Assembly (NCBI GenBank): GCA_010093515.1
Contig: MU001677.1
Coordinates: 828,223 to 868,331, forward strand
Direction of reading: 5' to 3'
Length of the DNA stretch: 40,109 nt
Source of the DNA: Lineolata rhizophorae
Lineage: Eukaryota > Ascomycota > Dothideomycetes > Lineolatales > Lineolataceae
Numbering within the stretch: the first letter of the stretch is position 1; every line of letters starts with the position of its first letter. The translations under genes and the position numbers were made by a program. Under the pieces are notes generated by a model. The model made no database searches, was not told the DNA's origin, and saw only the letters and a program-made list of their open reading frames with translations. Shown here piece after piece: positions 51-36,425 of this stretch.

Positions 51-245
51 TAGGAACGGTTATGTTAGAGATATAAACTAGAGGAGTGATACTCTGGCAC
101 GTTACTCATTTTGTGTAAAGATTCATATTTCGGGAATGGCGCAATATGATTAGCTGAAACCCAGCAGCCGAAGGCTTGGCGCATCCGCAGCTCTCCAGTG
201 GCATCAGAGAAGCATCAGAAAAGTTTCTCGGGAAACCGCTTCGCC

Positions 246-2274
246 ATGAGAACAGCGGTTCCTCCCATTTTTCAGCCATCATTCAGGAATAACCTATGGA
301 GAATACGATCCCACTTGCTCCTTCTACCGGACTCGTCTCAACTGTGGACATATTTCGCTAAACAACGTTATTCTTCGGCCATGGCAGCCGCGGCACCGAA
401 TGAGGTCGACTACTCCTCATGGAGCAACGAAGCGCTCGTAGCGCGGGTGACGGAGCTAGAAAAGAGACTAAAAGAGACCAATGCACAGTACGACTTTGTT
501 ATGTCGCGAGACGATCTTAAGGCTAACAACTGTTTGGACAGAGCTGTCAACGCAGCGTCACCCAACAACCCACCGGCCAAGAAAATCCGCCGCAAAGTTC
601 CAAATCGCCTCATTGATCCATCCAAATACAGCACCCGTCCGATCGCGCTCAAATTCGCTTATCTGGGCAAACGCTACAATGGGTTTGAGCATCACATGAA
701 CAACAAGACCCGCCTGCCGGCCGTGGAGGAGGCCTTGTGGCGCGCGCTTATGAAGTGCCGACTCATTTTCCCGATTGACAAAGACGGCAACATACAGCAA
801 GGGGATGATGGCGACATTAACTGGAATGGATGCGAATATGCAAAGTGCGGAAGGACGGACAAAGGCGTGTCAGCATTTGGGCAGGTTGTTTCGCTGAAAG
901 TGCGAAGTAGCCGACCGCCAGAGCACGATGGGAGCGAGAAGAGCGCTGGAAATGCTCGATTATACGCTTCGGCGGACGAAGCAGAGAGCACAAAACAAGC
1001 AGAGGAGGCAAAGCCAAGAAAACAGTGGGACCCTATCAAGGATGAGTTACAATACACTCATATGCTCAACAAAGTTCTCCCCCCTGATATCCGAGTTCTT
1101 GCCTGGTGCCCCAACCCACCTCCAGGTTTCTCTGCCCGGTTTTCTTGCAGGGAGCGCCGGTACCGATACTACTTCACTAACCCCGCATTCTTGCCCGTCC
1201 CTGGTAGGAAAGGTTTGTATAGCGGCCAGGGAGAGAGGACGTATAGAGAAGGCTGGCTAGATATAGATTCCATGCAAGAGGCAGCGAAACTTTTCATCGG
1301 CGAGCACGACTTCCGAAATTTCTGCAAGATTGATCCTACCAAACAAATCACCAACTTCAAAAGGCGGGTCTATCATACAGAGATCAAGGAAGTGCAACGA
1401 AGCGAGGGCCCAGTCGCACTCGCAACGTGGCCTGGATTCCGACAACCAGGAGTTGATGAAATGTTCCAGCAACATCAGGAAGAGTCGCTCTCAGCCGTGA
1501 TCGACGTACAGGCCGAGCTGGATAAAATAACCAGTTTAGCCCCGAGTGACCCGATCACAGCAGGAAGTGCCTTCCCCAGACCGACGCCAAAGTTGTACGC
1601 ATTCGAGGTCCAAGGCCAGTCCTTCCTCTGGCATCAGGTACGACATTTGGTCGGCATTCTTTTCCTCGTTGGGCAAGGGCTCGAGCCGCCCTCTGTGGTC
1701 TCAAATCTCCTGAGTGTGGAAAAGACGGCGGGGAAACCAAGATACGAAATGGCAGAGGACATTCCTCTCATTCTTTGGGACTGCATTTTTCCGGACCTGA
1801 AAACAAAGAGTCGAGAAGATTCATTGACCTGGATTTACGTTGGTGACGAGCAAAAAGGAGAGAGCCCTGTAAAAGGCGGGGCTAGCGGCAAATTTGACCG
1901 CATGGGTATTTTGGAAGATTTGTGGGAAACTTGGCGAGAACGTAAGATGGATGAGGTACTGGCAGGCACCTTGTTTGATGCCGTGGCTAGCCAAGGCAGG
2001 AAAAGGGACTACGGTGCTGAGCCTCTTGTTCCAGGGCAAGATGTTAGGCGGTAAGCAGCAATTTCCTGATGGCTTGTCTTAGTTACTGACCTGCAATAGG
2101 AGCGCCAAGGTATTTCATGGTGGGGATAGCTACAAACTAAGCGGGAAGTACATACCTGTAATGCAGAAAGAGAAGATGGATGCTCCCGAGATCATCAATG
2201 CGAGATATGCATCGAAGAAGGGTTTGAACGGAGGCGATATTGCTACACAATGTTCTGATGAGGCCGACGAATGA
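246..2274 (+). CDS. PUS3: tRNA pseudouridine(38/39) synthase Pus3/Deg1, two exons
   Basis: TruA-family pseudouridine synthase that isomerises U38/U39 in the anticodon arm of tRNAs. The catalytic motif CGRTDKG is clear, with the Asp at about residue 205 counted from the ATG at 246. The family motifs YLGKRYNGFEHH and FLWHQVRHLVGIL are also present. The long reading frame stops at 2052-2054, but a 49-bp intron at 2051-2099 (GTAAGC donor, CTGAC branch, AATAG acceptor) removes that stop. It joins a 58-codon terminal exon containing GKYIPVMQKEKM and INARYASKKG, which matches the usual C-terminus of the family. The product is 659 aa from 246 or 614 aa from the ATG at 381, which has the stronger context (GCCATGGC). 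The 45 residues between the two starts are Arg-rich and nearly free of acidic residues, like a mitochondrial presequence. Known yeast Pus3 acts on both cytoplasmic and mitochondrial tRNAs. Its 3' end faces GPI15 with 17 bp between stop codons. Confidence 0.93.
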
Positions 2275-9050: not shown

Positions 9051-12000
9051 CTATCCTGTATTCTCCGGCGCCACCTTCATAATCGCCTCAAGCCCTTTAG
9101 GAACCTGCCACCCATGCATCTGGCACGCCCTGCGAAACGCTTCGACGGCCTCTCCCATGCCATACTTCGCAGCATTCGGCGTCACTACATTGGAAGGGAG
9201 CAAAGCCAGCCTTGCGGGGCGTGGCTCCGGGTCGACGAGGGCCATGCGGACCTGGAACAGCACGTGTTCGATGCTGTAGACGGCCGACCAGCCAGAGTTG
9301 GTCAGAAGCTCCATGCAAAGCGCGCCGCCCGCGGTGACGTGACCGCCGCCGCCGTTCGCAAAGGGTAAGAAGCGCGGTTGGATGACGCGGACGAACGGGG
9401 GAGCCATGGGGTAGTCCGGTCCGAAGCGCAGTTCGAGGACGATGGATGTAACCTTGGCGGCTTTCATGTCTTGTGCGAGAGGCAACTCAGCGTCAAAGGA
9501 GTGCAGTTCGACGATCCATTGATATACCGAATTGACAAGGTCCGGGTTGAGGTAAAAGCCTAGATCGTGGAGAGCTGTGTTGTTCTGGACTCTGATTAGA
9601 TCTTTAAGATCCTGTTGTAGACGCTTCGTGGCCATTGAAGTGGCGTAGGAAGGTAGGGCAAGCAACGGGAGTTTAGACGTATCAAGAGAACCGGGGACAA
9701 AATCAGTTTGAGGAGGCCCGTGAGCGGTGCGCTTGAACAGCGAGGAAGGCTTTCTCCTGGCTGGAGAACCAGGATTGGACCAGAAAGGTTCATCGGCCGT
9801 GCTGCAGTCTTCATCATCCGTTGGCTCACGTGAATCCAAGCCGGCGTCGTCAGATTCCCAGACCAATAATGCCTTGTCCTCTTCATCTGTTGCGACCGAC
9901 TCAAAATCATCGTCTTCCGCCGTGAACTTCCTCTTCTTCGAATGCTCTTTATTTCGTTCTTCCACTGCCGGCCTCTTGCTACTATTGAACTGCTCTTTTA
10001 TGCTTCCATCTTGCGATTTCAGCTTCTTCACTGCACTAACTGCACTTAGCGGGATATGCAACGGTTCGGTAGGCGTCTGTGAAGTTATATCAAGCCCCCG
10101 CGCACACACCGCCGGATCCTGCTCATAGTACAGACCATGCGACTCGGCCCTTGAAGACTGCCTGGATAAATCGTATGAGTCACATTCTACAAACAGGTAC
10201 CGAGTCTGGATCCACTCGACCTGGTTGACGACGAGATGGGGAGTGGTGCTAACAAATTGCTTGGGTGCATTCACCACTTCGGACAAGCACATCGCTGACG
10301 TGGGGTTAAGGACGGAGTTTCTCCACGTGTGGCCGCCCAAATATTTCGTATATCCGATGCTTGTGGACGGGTTGAGTGATAGGTAGACACCATGACCATA
10401 GACGCGGCCATTCTCCTCCTTGCGGTAATGCAAACCTTCGCGGATAATCGAATGCCAGTTCCACATACGGCTGCCATGAAATGCGAACAAGCTCGGATAT
10501 TTGCGATTAGGAGCCGATTTGACCACGCTCTCCAGGAAGCGGCGCTCTTTGTCCGGCGCTCCCATGGCAATGCGAAATTGGACGTAGGTCGACGGCAGAC
10601 CATCTACGCGGTCCGTTCCCGGTATGATCTTGCCTCTGCCATCGGCGGTTTTTCCTTTGCTAATAATGCCGTCGACTTGCATGATGCAAGAACGGCAAGA
10701 TGCAATGATCCAGCGGAGTAGGCCAACGCAAGCAGGGGGCATGCGGTCTGACCAAGATGCGAGACTAGTTGTTTGAGCGGTTTTGGTAAGAAACTCCTTC
10801 ATCTCGAGGACCGTCGGCATCATGTCAATCAGAAAACGAATGGCGCCTTGCTTCTCAGGGAAGCTCAGAGAGTCGAAATTGCAGTTATAGACGTACATGA
10901 AAGCTTTGACGTCTTCTTTGTTATCGTTCCGTCCTATTGCGGAGACGTAGCTCGTCGAGGCCCTACTTCCCGTCGGAACTGTAGCTTGCGACCTGTCGTG
11001 CCTTTTTGTCTGAGCAACTGGGTTTATGGGCATTACAACGGGTGCAGCCAATTGTGCACTCGGGAAGTCCACAGCTGTGATGCGGTGGTGGAAGATCCTA
11101 TTCCGATCTTGGGGGGCCTGGATTGCAACCCAATCGCCTCGTTTAATTGGACACTTTGTACTGTTATGAATCCCGGACTCGGGGTCAAAGTATAAGGTCC
11201 TCATTTTCTCATTGAATCGGATCTTGTACGGTATCATCGTATGGTCCTTAGTACTTCCCGAGGCCGATAAAGCTTGATTTTGATTTTGTGTGCCACCCAT
11301 CTTTATGCCGTGGCTCTGGCACCGTTCGAGATGTTCCCAAGAGGTCTCGACATGCACTCCTGAAGGTGGGATCTTGAGCTCCAACCCCACTGGGTACGTG
11401 TGAGTATTAGAAGGTTCAGAATTGCCCCCGCAAACCATGTCACGGATACTTGTCGAAGGGGAGGAGCGCACAGACGAGTACAAAAAGCTGATTAGAATGT
11501 CCACCACGTAAGGCTGCTCGACTATCTCATGCTCCATGCTGGTTCCGAAGCCGAGGCTCATTAGTTGGTAGAGACAGAGTGAACTGTCGCAGACGTAGGG
11601 CTTGATAGCTTCAAGATCGGCTTGCAGCTTTTTGTGACAAACTAGGCAAAACTCGGTGCACTGGACAAAATGGCGCATTAAAAACTGCATGGCTACGAGG
11701 GGAAGGGAGAGCTTAGACGGATCGTTGTCTATTTTAAACTGGTCTCCTGTAACGATGTCTGGATAAGTAGAATCTCCGCTGTCCGGGGTATGATGGTACT
11801 TAGGGTCTGACAGCTCGTTGGCGACATTGCCTTTGCCTTGCGTGTCGTTAAAGAAAAGTTCTGCGCCATCCCAGCTCATGCCATGTAGTCGGAACATGAG
11901 CAATTGGGCAAAACGCGTGTTGAAGAGATCGGCTAGCGGCTGGGAGATAAAGCAAAGGCGGAAGTCGTTCCTCGATGGATTGCTGTGCACCAATGCTTCT

Positions 12001-13192
12001 TCATCCACGGCCACGTTCTCGAAGGCGGATACCACTTCATTGCAGGATGGCTTGTAGTTGGTTCGGTCAATCCCGACCCGAAATTCGACCAAATCGATCG
12101 ACGTCGGAGGGCCTTTGCCTTGAACTTCCACGAGTCTGCGGTAACCGTTGGGAAACTTCAAGAGGAGAACAAGATACTCCTTTGGATGTACCTTCCACGC
12201 ACGCATGGAATCCTCTGATAAGCCAAGCTTCTCGATGCGACAAGAAATAGAGATGTAACACGGCTCCTTTAGGCGCACAGCCCCTCCAAAGACGCCAATT
12301 CTGAAACCAGCCTTTTTGGCTGCCGTTAGGTCCTGATATAGAAGCTTCTGCCATTCGACCAATTTATTCGATCTAGATTTGAAGCGATTGCCCGGATTGG
12401 CAACTTCATTTGACTTTCGTACGCTCACGAAAGGCTGCTCATCGTCGAAGAATGGTTGCTCCTCGTCAGTGGTATCAGACTCCGCGCCAGAGTTCATGTC
12501 GGGGTCACCATCGTCGCCGTCATCGCCATCATCGTCATCACCGTCACCGGTGCGTAGCTTCCCGATAGCGGTTGACACGACATCCAAGAGCTGAGCGACT
12601 GTCTGGCCTGGAATCATAGGAAGTTTATCGAGAGGCTTAGCAACCGATACCGGCACATCATCCACAGCAAATACGGAAAATGTGTGTGCATCTGGATATT
12701 CAGAGACGTCTATAAGAGAGTGTTAGCGCATGAATCATTGCAACGTTCCGGGCTGAAAAATGTAGTAATGAAGTAGTGTTCGAATCCGTTGCTTGTCACA
12801 AGTAATCAAAAGAGAATAAAGAAAGGACCATAACATGTGATGTTGAGCTGGCCATGACATGCGGCCAGCGGCTTTCATGCATAGTTTGGTGAAGTACTCC
12901 CAATAGGCGTCTGCAGTATCCAAGGTGGCCCGAATTACCACCCATAACATGTGTCGCGATTACGTGTTTGGGTCGCCTCCGGGCCACAAAGGTATATCGG
13001 GAAGATGGAAGAAGCAATCAGTTTACCATTTAGAACTGCTGCGAGTGTGAACTTGAGGCCGTTGAATGTAGAAGGCGCGACCTCGAAGTGGATCTCGCCA
13101 TCGTCATCGCCACTCCGAACGCCGGAGATGATGCCGATATCGCCTTTCTCGGTTGCTGCCCGCAGGTCGGCGACGAACTGCTTACGAGGCAT
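9051..13192 (-). CDS. PARP-UBE2Q fusion: ADP-ribosyltransferase plus ubiquitin-conjugating domain
   Basis: Two exons: 13192-13027 and 12709-9051. The intron at 12710-13026 (317 bp) has a GTAAAC donor, a GCTAAC branch and a TATAG acceptor. The join yields AVLN-D-VSEYPDAHTF in frame and a 1274-aa protein. Layout: an N-terminal RWD-like module (about 1-110, with STFNGLKFTLAAVLNDVSEY) as in UBE2Q proteins; an acidic linker (DGDDDDGDDGDDGD); a cysteine cluster at about 410-434 (FCLVC, VCDSSLC); and a PARP catalytic domain with HGSRMWNWHSIIREGL (His about 800) and YGHGVYLSLN (Tyr about 831). The position of the PARP1 catalytic Glu aligns with His (PHLVV, about 880), so mono-ADP-ribosylation is more likely than chain formation. 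A KKRK nuclear-type signal lies at about 980. The C-terminal UBC domain (about 1080-1230) has GGALCMELLTNSGWSAVYSIE, matching the active-site segment of UBE2Q E2 enzymes, with Cys about 1187 intact. Both halves therefore look mostly functional. The fusion is known as a fungal PARP clade, but its substrates are unknown to me. Confidence 0.92.
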
Positions 13193-16726: not shown

Positions 16727-19413
16727 ATGGACAACACAGTCCCACCCCAACAGGAACCTGTCGCAGCACCGACCTCGCCGGACTTAACACCGCGACATAG
16801 ACGCCGCCGCCCTGCTGTGTCGTGTGTTAGCTGCCGGCGCCAGAAAGTCAGGTGCGACCGAAAGTCGCCCTGTACTCGGTGCATTCGAGGCAAACGAGCC
16901 TGCACTTACGCACCACTGGCCGCGTTGGATGCTAGTCCGCCGAACCCTCCGGACTCTCGAACCAGCAGCACTCAGAACCATCACAGCCCAAACCATGGCG
17001 CGAAACTAACTGCAGACAACTCTTCTCATAGCGCTTCACGTGACGATAGGAGTCAAACGCAGACTAGAAGCAGTCTTGTGGCAGGAGCAGGGTCTCTCCA
17101 GGGATGGAACTATCCTTCCCCTCCTCCAACCAGTAGCTCGCCGAGGAATGCTGTGGACGACAGACGATCCCGAGGCCATCGAGGCCCATCATCATGTGTT
17201 TCAGCGGGTGCTCAGAGCTCCGCTTCAGACGTCCGAGCTCTTGAAGAAAAAATCCAAAACTTGGAGCGTCAGTTGCGGGATCTTGATGTCGCACCGCCAG
17301 CCTCCAAACCTAGAACAATCACAACGTCTCCTTTTACAAATACTCGGCTGCCTATCAAGGGCACCTACTCGAAGACAAGACTCCTCGGTGAATCCCATTG
17401 GATGAATCTAAAGGACCAAGTAAGACTTCACCGGCCGACTCGAAGTGCGCTGCTTTAGGTCGAATTCTGTTGAACTGATGGAACGGTCAGTTTCCACTCC
17501 TGACGAGGGTTATCAAAACCCATGAAAATAATGCCAACTCGGAGACCTATAGAATGCACGCAAGGTGCAAGAAGATTGCCAAGACAGCAAAAACTCAAAA
17601 GCCACTTCTCGAACCCATCCCTTCCGACGTCAAGGAGTACATCCCAGCAAAGGAGTTGGCCGACCAACTTATCGAACACTACTTCCGGGCCTTTGAGTCC
17701 ACCCACAGAATCGTACATATCCCATCTTTTCGGCGGGAGTATGATCAGTACTGGATCAACCCACAATCGGCATCGATCGCCTTTGTAATCCAGCTCCTCC
17801 TCATCCTCGCCATCGGCACCTGCTTCTACCAAGGCCCGGAAGGGCTCCAACTCCGGTCGTCAGCGACGCAGTGGATCTACGCCGCGCAGACGTGGCTCAA
17901 CTCGCCCTTCGAGAAGTCGCGCATGAACATGACGGGCCTCCAGGTCCACTGCCTCGTCCTGCTCGCGCGCCAGACCAACAACGTCAACGGGGATCTGGTG
18001 TGGACGTCGGCGGGCGCGCTCCTCCGCACCGCCATGTTCATGGGCCTCCACCGCGACCCGTCCAACTTCCGCCACTTCGACTTCTTCCAGGCCGAGATGC
18101 GCCGCCGGCTGTGGGCCACGGTGCTCGAGCTCCTCGTGCAGTCGAGCCTCACCTCGGGCGGGGCGCCGCTCGTCAGCTGCCAGGATTTCGACTGCGAGCC
18201 GCCGTCCAACATCGACGACGCGCAAATGGAAGGAGGCGGTGGCGGCGGCGACGGCTCGGCGGAGCCCGTGGCCCCCAAGCCTCCCGACGTCTTCACGCAG
18301 AGCTCGATCCAGATGGCGCTGATGCGCTCGCTGCCGACCCGGCTCGCGATTGCGCACCACCTGAACGACTTCCGGAGCTCGGGCTCGTACGAGGACACGC
18401 TGCGGCTGGGCAAGGAGCTCGACGGGATCCTTCGAGCCAACGCGCGGCTGTTCCGGTCGTTCCCCGGCGGCGGCGGCAGTGCCGACGACGCCGACGACGA
18501 CGACCGCGGCTCCGCCACCCGCGCCCCGCGCCGCCCCACCCCCTTCCACACCAGGCTCCTCGACGTCCTCACGCACGACTTCGTGCTCGCGCTCCACCGC
18601 CCCTTCGCCAAGCTGGCCCGGCACGACCCGACCTACTTCTACAGCCAGACCGTGTGCCTGGAGACGGCGCTCTTCCAGCTCGGCGGCGGCTCCACCGGCC
18701 AGGCGGACGACTGGACCCGCCTGCTCGTCGTCGGCGGCGGGCCGTTCCGCGGCATCCCGCTGCGGGCCAGCTTGTACGCGGCGGCGGAGCTGGTGGCGCG
18801 GGCGGCGTCGTCGGGGGCGGGGGCGGGCACGTGCGTGGGCGGCGCGGCGCTGGCGCCGGACGCGTGGGCGGGCCGGCTGCGCGCCGCCATCGCGTTCTAC
18901 GCCGACCTCGTCAGGCGCCGGGTCCGCCACGGCGAGATGAACTTTCGCGGGTACTGCTTCATGTCGATGGTGCTGGCGGAGGCGGACGCGCGGGGCGCGA
19001 GGGCGGCGGCGGCGGGGAGGGCGGGCGAGGGGGACGGGGACGGGGAGGAGGAGGTCGAGGAGGCGGTGTGGAGGGAGGCGAGGCGGTCGCTCGGGGTCAG
19101 CTACGCGTTGCTGAAGGAGATGTGTGGGGAGTTGTTGGGGAGGGAGATCGATGTGGCGATGCCGGGGGAGGAGGGGGAAGAAGGGCAGGAGGGGCGCGGC
19201 CAGGATTCGTCGGCGGGGTTCGCGCCGAATGATCTGAGTGGGTTTGAGTGGTATGATGCGGTATGTTGGTGACCAAATTCCTTCCTTTTTGGCTTCTCCG
19301 GGGCCGAGGAATGCCTGGCTTTGATGCTGACTTCTTGAAAGGACATCGAGTTCAACTTTGACATGCCGGAGCCGTGGCTGAGTGGTATCATGCCAATGGA
19401 TCTCAACTCATAG
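16727..19413 (+). CDS. Zn2Cys6 fungal transcription factor with MHR domain, three exons
   Basis: Exons 16727-17419, 17491-19260 and 19342-19413. The introns are 17420-17490 (GTAAGA donor) and 19261-19341 (GTATGT donor, CTGAC branch). The joins read NLKDQ-FPLLTRVIKTHE and WYDA-DIEFNFDMPEPW. Product 844 aa. The binuclear cluster is complete with spacing C-X2-C-X6-C-X5-C-X2-C-X6-C (Cys about 33, 36, 43, 49, 52 and 59: CVSCRRQKVRC, CTRCIRGKRAC), preceded by basic RHRRRR. A short coiled coil (ALEEKIQNLERQLRDLD) follows for dimerisation. The fungal-specific MHR domain spans about 280-620 (AFESTHRIVHIPSFRREYDQYW, LVWTSAGALLRTAMFMGLHRDP, RRRLWATVLEL). The C-terminus is acidic and aromatic (FEWYDA, FNFDMPEPW), as in an activation tail. 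Third codon positions turn almost all G/C after about 17.8 kb. There is no ATG upstream in frame, so 16727 is the start. It probably controls the divergent MFS gene. Confidence 0.92.
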
Positions 19414-34679: not shown

Positions 34680-36425
34680 TTACAAATGTTCACCAACCCA
34701 CTCTCTCCCTCTCATCCACACCCTTAGACATTCCGGCACCCAAATCATCCCCCTATCCGCATCCCACCCCTGCTCTATCAGTGCAGCCAGCACCCTCGGC
34801 ACCGCGCACGCCGTCCCGTTAACGCTATGCAGAAAGACCAGACTGCCGTCAGCCAGTTTGACACGAGCGCCGAGACGGCGCGCCTGGTAGTCGGTGCAAA
34901 GCGAAGCGGAAGTGAGTTCGCCCCATCCAAGGTGCTCCTGCGAGGAGGGGAACGTGGAAAGCCCGGCGGCGGCGCGCGACGGGAAGTAGGCCTCGTGGTC
35001 GAGCTTGCGGGTTGCAGAGGCGCCGAGGTCGGCGCTGGGAAGTTCGAGGAGGCGGGCGTGGAGGTTGAGCGACGTGAGGATGTGGGATTGGAGAGAAAGT
35101 ATGTCGGCGAATATGGCTTCCGCGGGCGTTTGTGCCTGTATCGACGATGAACGAGATGCGGAGGTGTCGAAGTTTCCGTCAGCGGACGCGGACGATTCGT
35201 CGGCCGTCGGCGGCATCGCCCAGCCAAACAGCTCCACCTTCGTGAACTCGTGCACGCGGTACAGGCCCTTCGTCTCGGCGCCGCGCGCGCCCGCCTCCGC
35301 GCGATAGCATCGGCTGACGCCGACCATCTTGAGCGGCAGCGACTCCGGACGCACCGTCTGTCCTGCCAGCATGCCCGCGAGTGGGATCTCCGCCGTGCCA
35401 GCGAGGACCAGGGGGGGGGTTTTTCCGCTACTACCACCGCCTTCCCCATTGTTTCCTCCGTCGACGTCGCCCACGCTGTAGATCTGCGTCTCGCCGCTCT
35501 GGTCGCGCGGCCGGAAGCCAGAGGCCTCGGCGATGTGCGCGTAGACGAGGGAGGGCGGGCTCACGGGAACAAAACCGCGTGCCATGGCTTCTTGTAGGGC
35601 GTATTGGATGAGCGCTTGTTCAAGGAGGGCGGCCGCGCTGCGGAGGAAGTAGAACCCCCAGCCGGAGGTGCGGGCACCAGCGGGGAAGTCGAGAACATTG
35701 TTGAGGTGGGCGGAGATGGCAGTATGAGAGCGGGAAGTGCCGCCTAGTAGAGTGGAGGGGTCGGCGGAAAAGCTGGGAGAAGAAAGAGTTTCTTGTTGTC
35801 GTAGTTTTGTGCCCAGTTGTTCGTTAATGTGACCCAGCACCGTCGGCGTTTCGCCCAACGGCGTATGCCCGCTCGTAAGATTTGGCAGCTCCCATGCCAA
35901 CCGCCCGATTTCGTCCTGTATGCCTTTCTCCAGCTCTTCTACACGCGCCAGTTCGACCTTCAAGGCTTTGGCCTCTTGGAGCAATTCCTCCCGAGTCCTA
36001 GCCTCCTCCTCACCTGCACTTGCATCCTCAGTATTTTGCCCGTTCGTTCGACCTCTTCCCGTCCCCAACTTCAATAATCTCCGTATCTTGTTACTCCGCT
36101 CGCGTAGCCGCCGGCCTTCTCCGCGTTGCATATTTAGCCACTGCTCATGCAGTTTGATGATACGCCAGGGGTATTGCGAAAGCGTGGCGTAGTTGCGATC
36201 AATGCAGTTTTGCTCGTATAGCCCGGGATTCTGCCGAATGTGCTTGATGTCTAGGTAGGCTTTTGGTGCTGTAGGCGGACGCGCCTGGGAAGAGGTAGTG
36301 TTCGCTCGGCGCTGTTGACCGCGTAAAGGGCAGAGAGGAGCACGTTTGAAGGGTTCGGGGAGAAATACTCGAAGGGAGCGGCGGCATCGTGAGCAGGCGC
36401 GGAAGGAGGCAGCCGGGGAGCGCAT
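34680..36425 (-). CDS. DIA4: Mitochondrial seryl-tRNA synthetase
   Basis: Single-exon gene of 581 aa that charges mitochondrial tRNA-Ser. The N-terminus (MRSPAASFRACSRCRRSLRV, then RRANTTSS) is Arg-rich and free of acidic residues for about 20 positions, as a mitochondrial presequence. An N-terminal coiled-coil arm follows (IKLHEQWLNMQRGEGRRLRE through RVEELEKGIQDEIGRL, about 90-195). The class II core has TAEIPLAGMLAGQ, motif 2 with the essential Arg (GVSRCYRAEAGARG, GLYRVHEFTKVELFGW) and motif 3 (SVNGTACAVPRVLAALIEQG). The family usually has FRAE in motif 2; here it is YRAE. Serine-poor linkers between motifs 2 and 3 are longer than usual. The 5' end faces the hypothetical gene on the plus strand. 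The ATG at 36425 is the first in frame. Confidence 0.94.
   Translation of the reverse strand: MRSPAASFRACSRCRRSLRVFLPEPFKRAPLCPLRGQQRRANTTSSQARPPTAPKAYLDIKHIRQNPGLYEQNCIDRNYATLSQYPWRIIKLHEQWLNMQRGEGRRLRERSNKIRRLLKLGTGRGRTNGQNTEDASAGEEEARTREELLQEAKALKVELARVEELEKGIQDEIGRLAWELPNLTSGHTPLGETPTVLGHINEQLGTKLRQQETLSSPSFSADPSTLLGGTSRSHTAISAHLNNVLDFPAGARTSGWGFYFLRSAAALLEQALIQYALQEAMARGFVPVSPPSLVYAHIAEASGFRPRDQSGETQIYSVGDVDGGNNGEGGGSSGKTPPLVLAGTAEIPLAGMLAGQTVRPESLPLKMVGVSRCYRAEAGARGAETKGLYRVHEFTKVELFGWAMPPTADESSASADGNFDTSASRSSSIQAQTPAEAIFADILSLQSHILTSLNLHARLLELPSADLGASATRKLDHEAYFPSRAAAGLSTFPSSQEHLGWGELTSASLCTDYQARRLGARVKLADGSLVFLHSVNGTACAVPRVLAALIEQGWDADRGMIWVPECLRVWMRGREWVGEHL

Follow-up and report, generated by a model that had tools for sequence, protein, structure and literature searches.

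A predicted fungal PARP of Clade 6A that carries a UBE2Q-like ubiquitin-conjugating domain on the same chain

Does a single fungal protein combine an ADP-ribosyltransferase with a ubiquitin-conjugating (E2) domain, and how would such a chain have been put together and used? The question is raised by a gene of Lineolata rhizophorae that lies in a 40,109-nucleotide stretch of contig C8 (the window, 40 kb of a 31 Mb assembly in 48 contigs). The gene occupies positions 9051-13192 on the minus strand and, in two predicted exons, encodes a 1274-residue product. PARP and E2 domains are here part of one predicted polypeptide, and from its sequence the protein is most likely a Clade 6A (PARP6/8-type) fungal PARP, a domain combination already known since 2010: PARP with a C-terminal UBCc domain was published for the Clade 6A fungal PARPs (Citarelli 2010, PMC2964712).

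The gene model comprises three parts:
13192-13027, minus strand: exon 1, encoding residues 1-55 and the first base of codon 56, with a predicted ATG at 13192 and a predicted splice junction
13026-12710, minus strand: predicted intron of 317 bases with GTAAAC...TATAG ends (GT/AG), in which GCTAAC starts 18 bases from the 3' end
12709-9051, minus strand: exon 2, encoding the remainder of the 1274-residue protein, with a TAG stop

Read unspliced, the frame meets a stop at codon 86, and the 317-base intron is therefore required. The open frame spanning exon 2 runs for 1223 codons without a stop and contains both domains. A sequence-only reading of the window had proposed a single protein with PARP and UBE2Q-type E2 domains that belongs to a fungal PARP clade. 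Its coordinates (9051-13192) and its residues His800, Tyr831 and Cys1187 are all exact in the translated gene model, both domains score above their Pfam cut-offs within one open frame, and the clade membership agrees with the architecture published as Clade 6A.

The Pfam search used the exon-2 protein as query; in the PDB search, the best 60 of the 200 sequences matched were inspected. For the PARP half, Pfam reported PARP (PF00644) with an E of 3.2e-10 and 40.3 bits (cut-off 26.7) across profile positions 50-116 (67 of 199). Two further Pfam families were reported for the exon-2 protein, both under their own cut-offs, and no further ADP-ribose-binding module was found by Pfam in the chain. 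The best PDB match of this half, among the 60 inspected, was PARP16 (4f0d, E 1.2e-9), which is named a mono-ADP-ribosyltransferase in the PDB. The features of the PARP half and of the linker that follows it are:
10596-10928, minus strand: possible helical extension of clade 6 PARPs, preceding the ADP-ribosyltransferase (ART) domain (residues ~650-760, approximate boundaries)
10161-10553, minus strand: PARP/ART catalytic domain (residues ~775-905, from Pfam PF00644 and the PARP16 alignment)
10476-10478, minus strand: catalytic His800, in FAFHGS (PARP16 alignment)
10383-10385, minus strand: catalytic Tyr831, in GHGVYLS (PARP16 alignment)
10236-10238, minus strand: His880 at the third active-site position (aligned with two paralogues)
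9666-10160, minus strand: Ser/Asp/Glu-rich linker (residues 906-1070)

The catalytic His and Tyr are kept and the final Glu is absent, as in the PARP catalytic domain of Clade 6A. In the column of His880 the two paralogues carry Thr and Val, and we take this column to be that of the PARP1 glutamate, which is Glu in polymerising PARPs. None of the Clade 6 proteins identified in the 2010 survey has the final Glu, in the passages available (PMC2964712). With His for Glu at position three, the expected activity of the PARP half is mono-ADP-ribosylation. Within the linker, the stretch KR...KKRK (residues 967-983, window 9977-9927), chosen by eye, resembles a bipartite nuclear signal, and a loose version of the pattern has 15 matching places. 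The label of the helical extension is taken from PMC10450202; in this putative region LLRWIIASCRS aligns with LLSWICTSYRG of one paralogue (L044).

In the C-terminal half, Pfam reported UQ_con (PF00179) with an E of 3.5e-8 and 33.6 bits (cut-off 27) across profile positions 49-114 (66 of 140). Among the 60 PDB sequences inspected, the closest to this half were 1zuo (E 6.7e-22) and UBE2Q1 (2qgx, E 8.2e-20), with canonical E2s at 1.5e-6 and weaker. The PDB record of 1zuo reads 'Hypothetical protein LOC92912'; we take it to be UBE2Q2. The features of this half are:
9054-9653, minus strand: UBE2Q-like E2 (UBC) domain (residues 1075-1274, from PDB and Pfam)
9339-9341, minus strand: His1179, eight residues N-terminal of Cys1187, at the place of UBE2Q1 Tyr343 (tool alignment)
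9315-9317, minus strand: catalytic Cys1187, aligned with the Cys of GGALCMELL/GGAICMELL in 1zuo and 2qgx
9123-9125, minus strand: Cys1251, at the place of UBE2Q1 His409 (by spacing to residues given in PMC10971424, beyond the tool alignment)
9108-9110, minus strand: Trp1256, at the place of UBE2Q1 Trp414 (by spacing to residues given in PMC10971424, beyond the tool alignment)

Alignment with the UBE2Q structures shows GGALCMELLT-x-x-GWS-x-x-YSIE conserved around Cys1187. The domain has the marks of a UBE2Q-type E2, in that its best match is a UBE2Q, the HPN triad is absent (G-G-H at -10 to -8) and the Cys is kept; PF00179, 1zuo and Cys1187 together identify the C-terminal UBCc with an active-site Cys that characterises Clade 6A. 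For ubiquitin discharge onto hydroxyls, UBE2Q1 depends on Tyr343, His409 and Trp414, which it does not need for loading (PMC10971424). Only the Trp of these three is kept in the fungal protein, with His for Tyr and Cys for His, in a triad that was shown for UBE2Q1 and is not claimed as defining fungal members. With one of the three discharge residues kept, ubiquitin loading on Cys1187 is therefore plausible, and the discharge chemistry is not predictable. A His near the donor Cys recurs among hydroxyl-ubiquitylating enzymes (PMC7615817), and His1179 therefore leaves hydroxyl discharge possible. The proposal that both active sites are largely intact thus stands for His800, Tyr831 and the E2 Cys, and gives way at two of the three UBE2Q1 discharge residues (one difference aligned by the tool, one by spacing only).

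The region ahead of the PARP domain bears on how the chain was assembled, and contains two features:
12546-13192, minus strand: N-terminal region, residues 1-110 (interrupted by the intron), the expected place of the published FPE/RWD-like region
11574-11648, minus strand: C4 motif, C410-x2-C413-x15-C429-x4-C434, the pattern of PARP6/8 homologues

The cysteines of C410-C434 match the published CX2CX9-19CX4C and lie ahead of the PARP domain, as in PARP6/8 homologues. Shuffling the whole protein 20,000 times produced this pattern in 21 cases, and 20,000 shuffles confined to the 290-residue stretch containing the motif produced it in 4. A Pfam search of residues 1-110, 163-389 and 391-775 with a limit of E 10, whose filters remove most matches above 0.1, listed no RWD. 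The single Pfam RWD row (E 0.077, below cut-off) is located inside the E2 domain. With residues 57-493 as query, the PDB yielded 21 sequences at E 10 or below, the best at 0.15, and neither a PARP nor an E2 was among them. Of the RWD-like N-terminus and cysteine cluster that had been proposed, the cluster is borne out, and the RWD was not detected by the Pfam sequence search.

Most Clade 6A members have an RWD-like FPE region (PMC2964712). In human PARP6 and PARP8 the helical and ART domains are accompanied by a C4 zinc finger and a split RWD, PARP8 has an additional diverged N-terminal RWD, and these RWDs came from structure prediction and not from full-length sequence searches (PMC10450202); the E2-like folds of PARP6/8 are termed enigmatic in a 2025 review (PMC12687431). 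RWD-like and cysteine parts are therefore to be expected of the PARP half, and an RWD here, taken alone, would be no proof of a UBE2Q origin. The C4 motif together with the published architecture makes the PARP half most likely of the PARP6/8 type. The sequence-only reading had seen a UBE2Q E2 with a PARP domain inserted into it; we set this aside as the less simple and less supported arrangement, as the C4 motif is that of PARP6/8 homologues and the C4 and RWD modules already belong to human PARP6/8. A PARP6/8-type enzyme to which a UBE2Q-like UBC was appended at the C-terminus fits the predicted protein better, and is the simpler reading. PARP6/8 homologues with UBCc have been described from fungi of the Ascomycota and Basidiomycota and also from a moss and a green alga (Perina 2014, PMC4245714), a published spread that speaks against a fusion by chance or by assembly error.

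The single frame, the identities of its two domains and their catalytic residues are directly observed. As to what the protein does, we favour, and consider reasonably probable, a two-activity Clade 6A enzyme in which PARP and UBE2Q-type E2 act from one chain on a shared target. The PARP domain would attach single ADP-ribose units to the target, and a ubiquitin-activating enzyme (E1) would charge the E2 on Cys1187. Ubiquitin would then pass from the E2 either to that target or onto the enzyme's own chain, probably with the help of a RING-type ubiquitin ligase (E3). Binding of partners or targets may fall to the N-terminal region and C4 motif, and the length of the linker, which has a nuclear-signal-like stretch, would allow both domains to reach one substrate. 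The two activities and their cooperation are inferred, as are the E3 and the location. Support comes from the Pfam-level domains in one frame, the UBE2Q-like surroundings of the Cys, the kept PARP His and Tyr, and the C4 motif. Several points weigh on the other side. We know of no characterised PARP with His at the third position. The PDB matches of the PARP half, among the 60 inspected, are to PARP16, so that the PARP6/8 label does not come from the PDB. The protein also differs from UBE2Q1 at both the Tyr343 and the His409 places, and UBE2Q1 mutants of these residues load ubiquitin and, Tyr to Phe excepted, show no discharge on a test peptide (PMC10971424).

These same differences would suit a chain with one non-enzymatic half, in which the PARP domain serves as an NAD+ sensor or partner-binding module that regulates the E2, or the E2 does no more than bind ubiquitin. 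The third PARP position is not Glu, two of the three UBE2Q1 discharge residues are changed, and PARP9 is described as an apparently inactive PARP (PMC4245714). However, the PARP His and Tyr and the E2 Cys in GGALCMELLT are kept, residues that an inactive domain would have no need to retain; we regard this explanation as unlikely. If both halves are active, they might together carry out MARUbylation in cis, where the PARP would add mono-ADP-ribose and the E2 on its own chain would link ubiquitin by an ester bond to a hydroxyl of that ADP-ribose, without a Deltex ligase. The UBE2Q enzymes can attach ubiquitin to Ser, Thr, glucose and complex sugars (PMC10971424), and ubiquitin on protein-bound mono-ADP-ribose exists in cells (PMC12000418). 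His1179, at the Tyr343 place, also fits the recurrence of a His near the donor Cys in hydroxyl-ubiquitylating enzymes (PMC7615817), and no Deltex DTC domain was found in the genome, though that search matched no control genome either. Against this, the UBE2Q1 triad retains only its Trp, the Tyr being His and the His reading as Cys, and Pfam gives no extra module in the chain for binding ADP-ribose, which makes cis MARUbylation rather unlikely in our judgement.

The acceptor could also be ubiquitin carried on the E2, which the PARP would modify, blocking or diverting conjugation. PARP9 with DTX3L reportedly modifies ubiquitin itself, and both domains lie on one chain here. A link between UBE2Q and ADP-ribosylation is hinted at by MavL, a bacterial ADP-ribose hydrolase that binds UBE2Q1 (PMC8699189, PMC10951314), but no ADP-ribosylation of UBE2Q1 was detected in the passages available (PMC10951314), and the two papers place the contact differently (the UBE2Q1 RWD domain in PMC10951314 versus prey numbered as C-terminal residues 396-453 in PMC8699189). 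Nothing in the sequence points to a ubiquitin acceptor, and we hold this explanation to be very improbable. The gene model could, finally, be an artefact of two adjacent genes or transcripts, given that a single transcript is supported by sequence only and that a Met stands directly ahead of the E2 domain, 3' of the linker. The 1223 stop-free codons across both domains and the publication of the same fusion for fungal proteins speak against two separate genes, a reading we reject, and leave an artefact barely credible.

A six-frame PARP search of the genome found three places, namely the window gene, one on C1 and one on C6, with a profile that matched in this genome and in no control genome. 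The C1 and C6 frames are 1291 and 1298 codons long (L044:3004-8568 and L045:2861-8658 including neighbours), and their products are 31% identical. They match the window protein across the PARP region (E 3.6e-5 and 7.4e-9), stop shortly after the PARP domain without an E2, and have PARP as their sole Pfam family at E up to 0.1. In the PDB they find only weak best matches, to PARP3 (E 0.039) and PARP15 (E 0.024) and not to PARP16. Both carry a cysteine cluster, CX2CX13CX3C, one residue short of the published CX4C pattern; we rejected these clusters as the same C4 motif because the spacing differs, BLASTP gave E 0.19 and 4.3, and MAFFT placed them out of register. Each frame adjoins another, of 453 or 460 codons. 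These two neighbours are 48% identical, have no Pfam family above cut-off, and are the sole two matching places in the genome at E 0.001. The C1 and C6 loci form a duplicated two-gene set, and the window gene lies outside such a pair. New here are these two extra PARP-domain genes without an E2, each beside a paralogous partner, and the failure to find a Clade 1 PARP.

Clade 6 without Clade 1 was found in none of the fungi examined in 2010, in the passages available (PMC2964712). WGR, a Clade 1 domain, had no match in the genome in a search that matched 2 of 14 control genomes; PRD (PARP_reg) had none either, in a search that matched 0 of 14, so its absence is not shown. The apparent exception in this genome is a lead, and it could come from gaps in the assembly or from domains split by introns. 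The searches for the Deltex DTC domain and for PARG were likewise without result across the genome and matched 0 of 14 control genomes, so that absence is not shown for them. Macrodomains, which may erase or read ADP-ribose, match at two places, C15:895543-895869 and C7:758170-758559 (L049, L050). The fused domain is the sole UBE2Q-like E2 seen in the genome: of the seven rows returned by a search with the E2 stretch and a limit of E 10, the remaining six stand at E 0.007 or worse, and at that sensitivity no stand-alone UBE2Q was found. About 90 kb before the window on C8, a 1068-codon frame (L046:2123-5329) has an E2 match close to its C-terminal end and may be UBE2O-like.

Elsewhere in the window there are a tRNA pseudouridine synthase gene (198-2051, plus strand), a gene with a fungal transcription factor domain (Fungal_trans; 17554-19269, plus strand) and a seryl-tRNA synthetase gene (34683-36425, minus strand). 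The Fungal_trans domain marks the gene content as fungal. Between 20000 and 24000, long open frames overlap on both strands and the G+C content is ~70%, compared with ~51-52% around the PARP-E2 gene.

In 2025 cells were reported to contain an ADP-ribose-ubiquitin hybrid mark, and Deltex ligases were then the only E3s shown to make it in vitro (PMC12000418). A fungal chain with both enzyme types would offer a compact test of the joint making of the two modifications. In the boldest version, the protein would be a one-chain writer of ADP-ribose-ubiquitin, with His1179 beside the donor Cys and no Deltex, in a fungus without detected Clade 1; we think this doubtful, indeed quite unlikely.

The protein is of a known kind. 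No Clade 6 PARP had been functionally characterised by 2010, in the passages available (PMC2964712), and we found no biochemical study of a fungal PARP-UBCc protein among the papers listed in searches of open-access full text, most of them judged by title and opening of the abstract, with preprints and most subscription papers outside the search. FonPARP1 is a different protein, with BRCT, WGR, PARP regulatory and catalytic domains (PMC11058995), and the terms 'UBCc' and 'ubiquitin' are both absent from the available text of the Trichoderma Tgparp paper (PMC11027231). Scans of viral contigs and prokaryote genomes confirmed no relative. Within fungi, UBE2Q-type catalytic domains occur mainly in Ascomycota and Basidiomycota according to a 2024 survey (PMC11354881).

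The closest known systems compare as follows. With the Clade 6A fungal PARPs the protein shares a fungal origin, a long N-terminus, a PARP domain without the final Glu and a C-terminal UBCc with an active Cys; it differs in that the published FPE region is undetected here by sequence, and in that the survey fungi with Clade 6 all keep Clade 1, whereas no Clade 1 match was obtained in this genome. The PARP6/8 homologues with UBCc (Perina 2014) have the same CX2CX9-19CX4C motif, PARP domain and added UBCc, again by description. Human PARP6 and PARP8 likewise place a C4 motif N-terminal to the ART domain, but they have RWD folds and no UBC is described for them in the passages available (PMC10450202), whereas the fungal protein ends in a UBC with its Cys. 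Human UBE2Q1 and UBE2Q2 differ in turn, as the fungal domain is fused to a PARP and has His for Tyr343 and, by spacing, Cys for His409; what they share with it is a UBC recognisable by sequence, the GGALCMELLT surroundings of the Cys, the absent HPN and, by spacing, the equivalent of Trp414.

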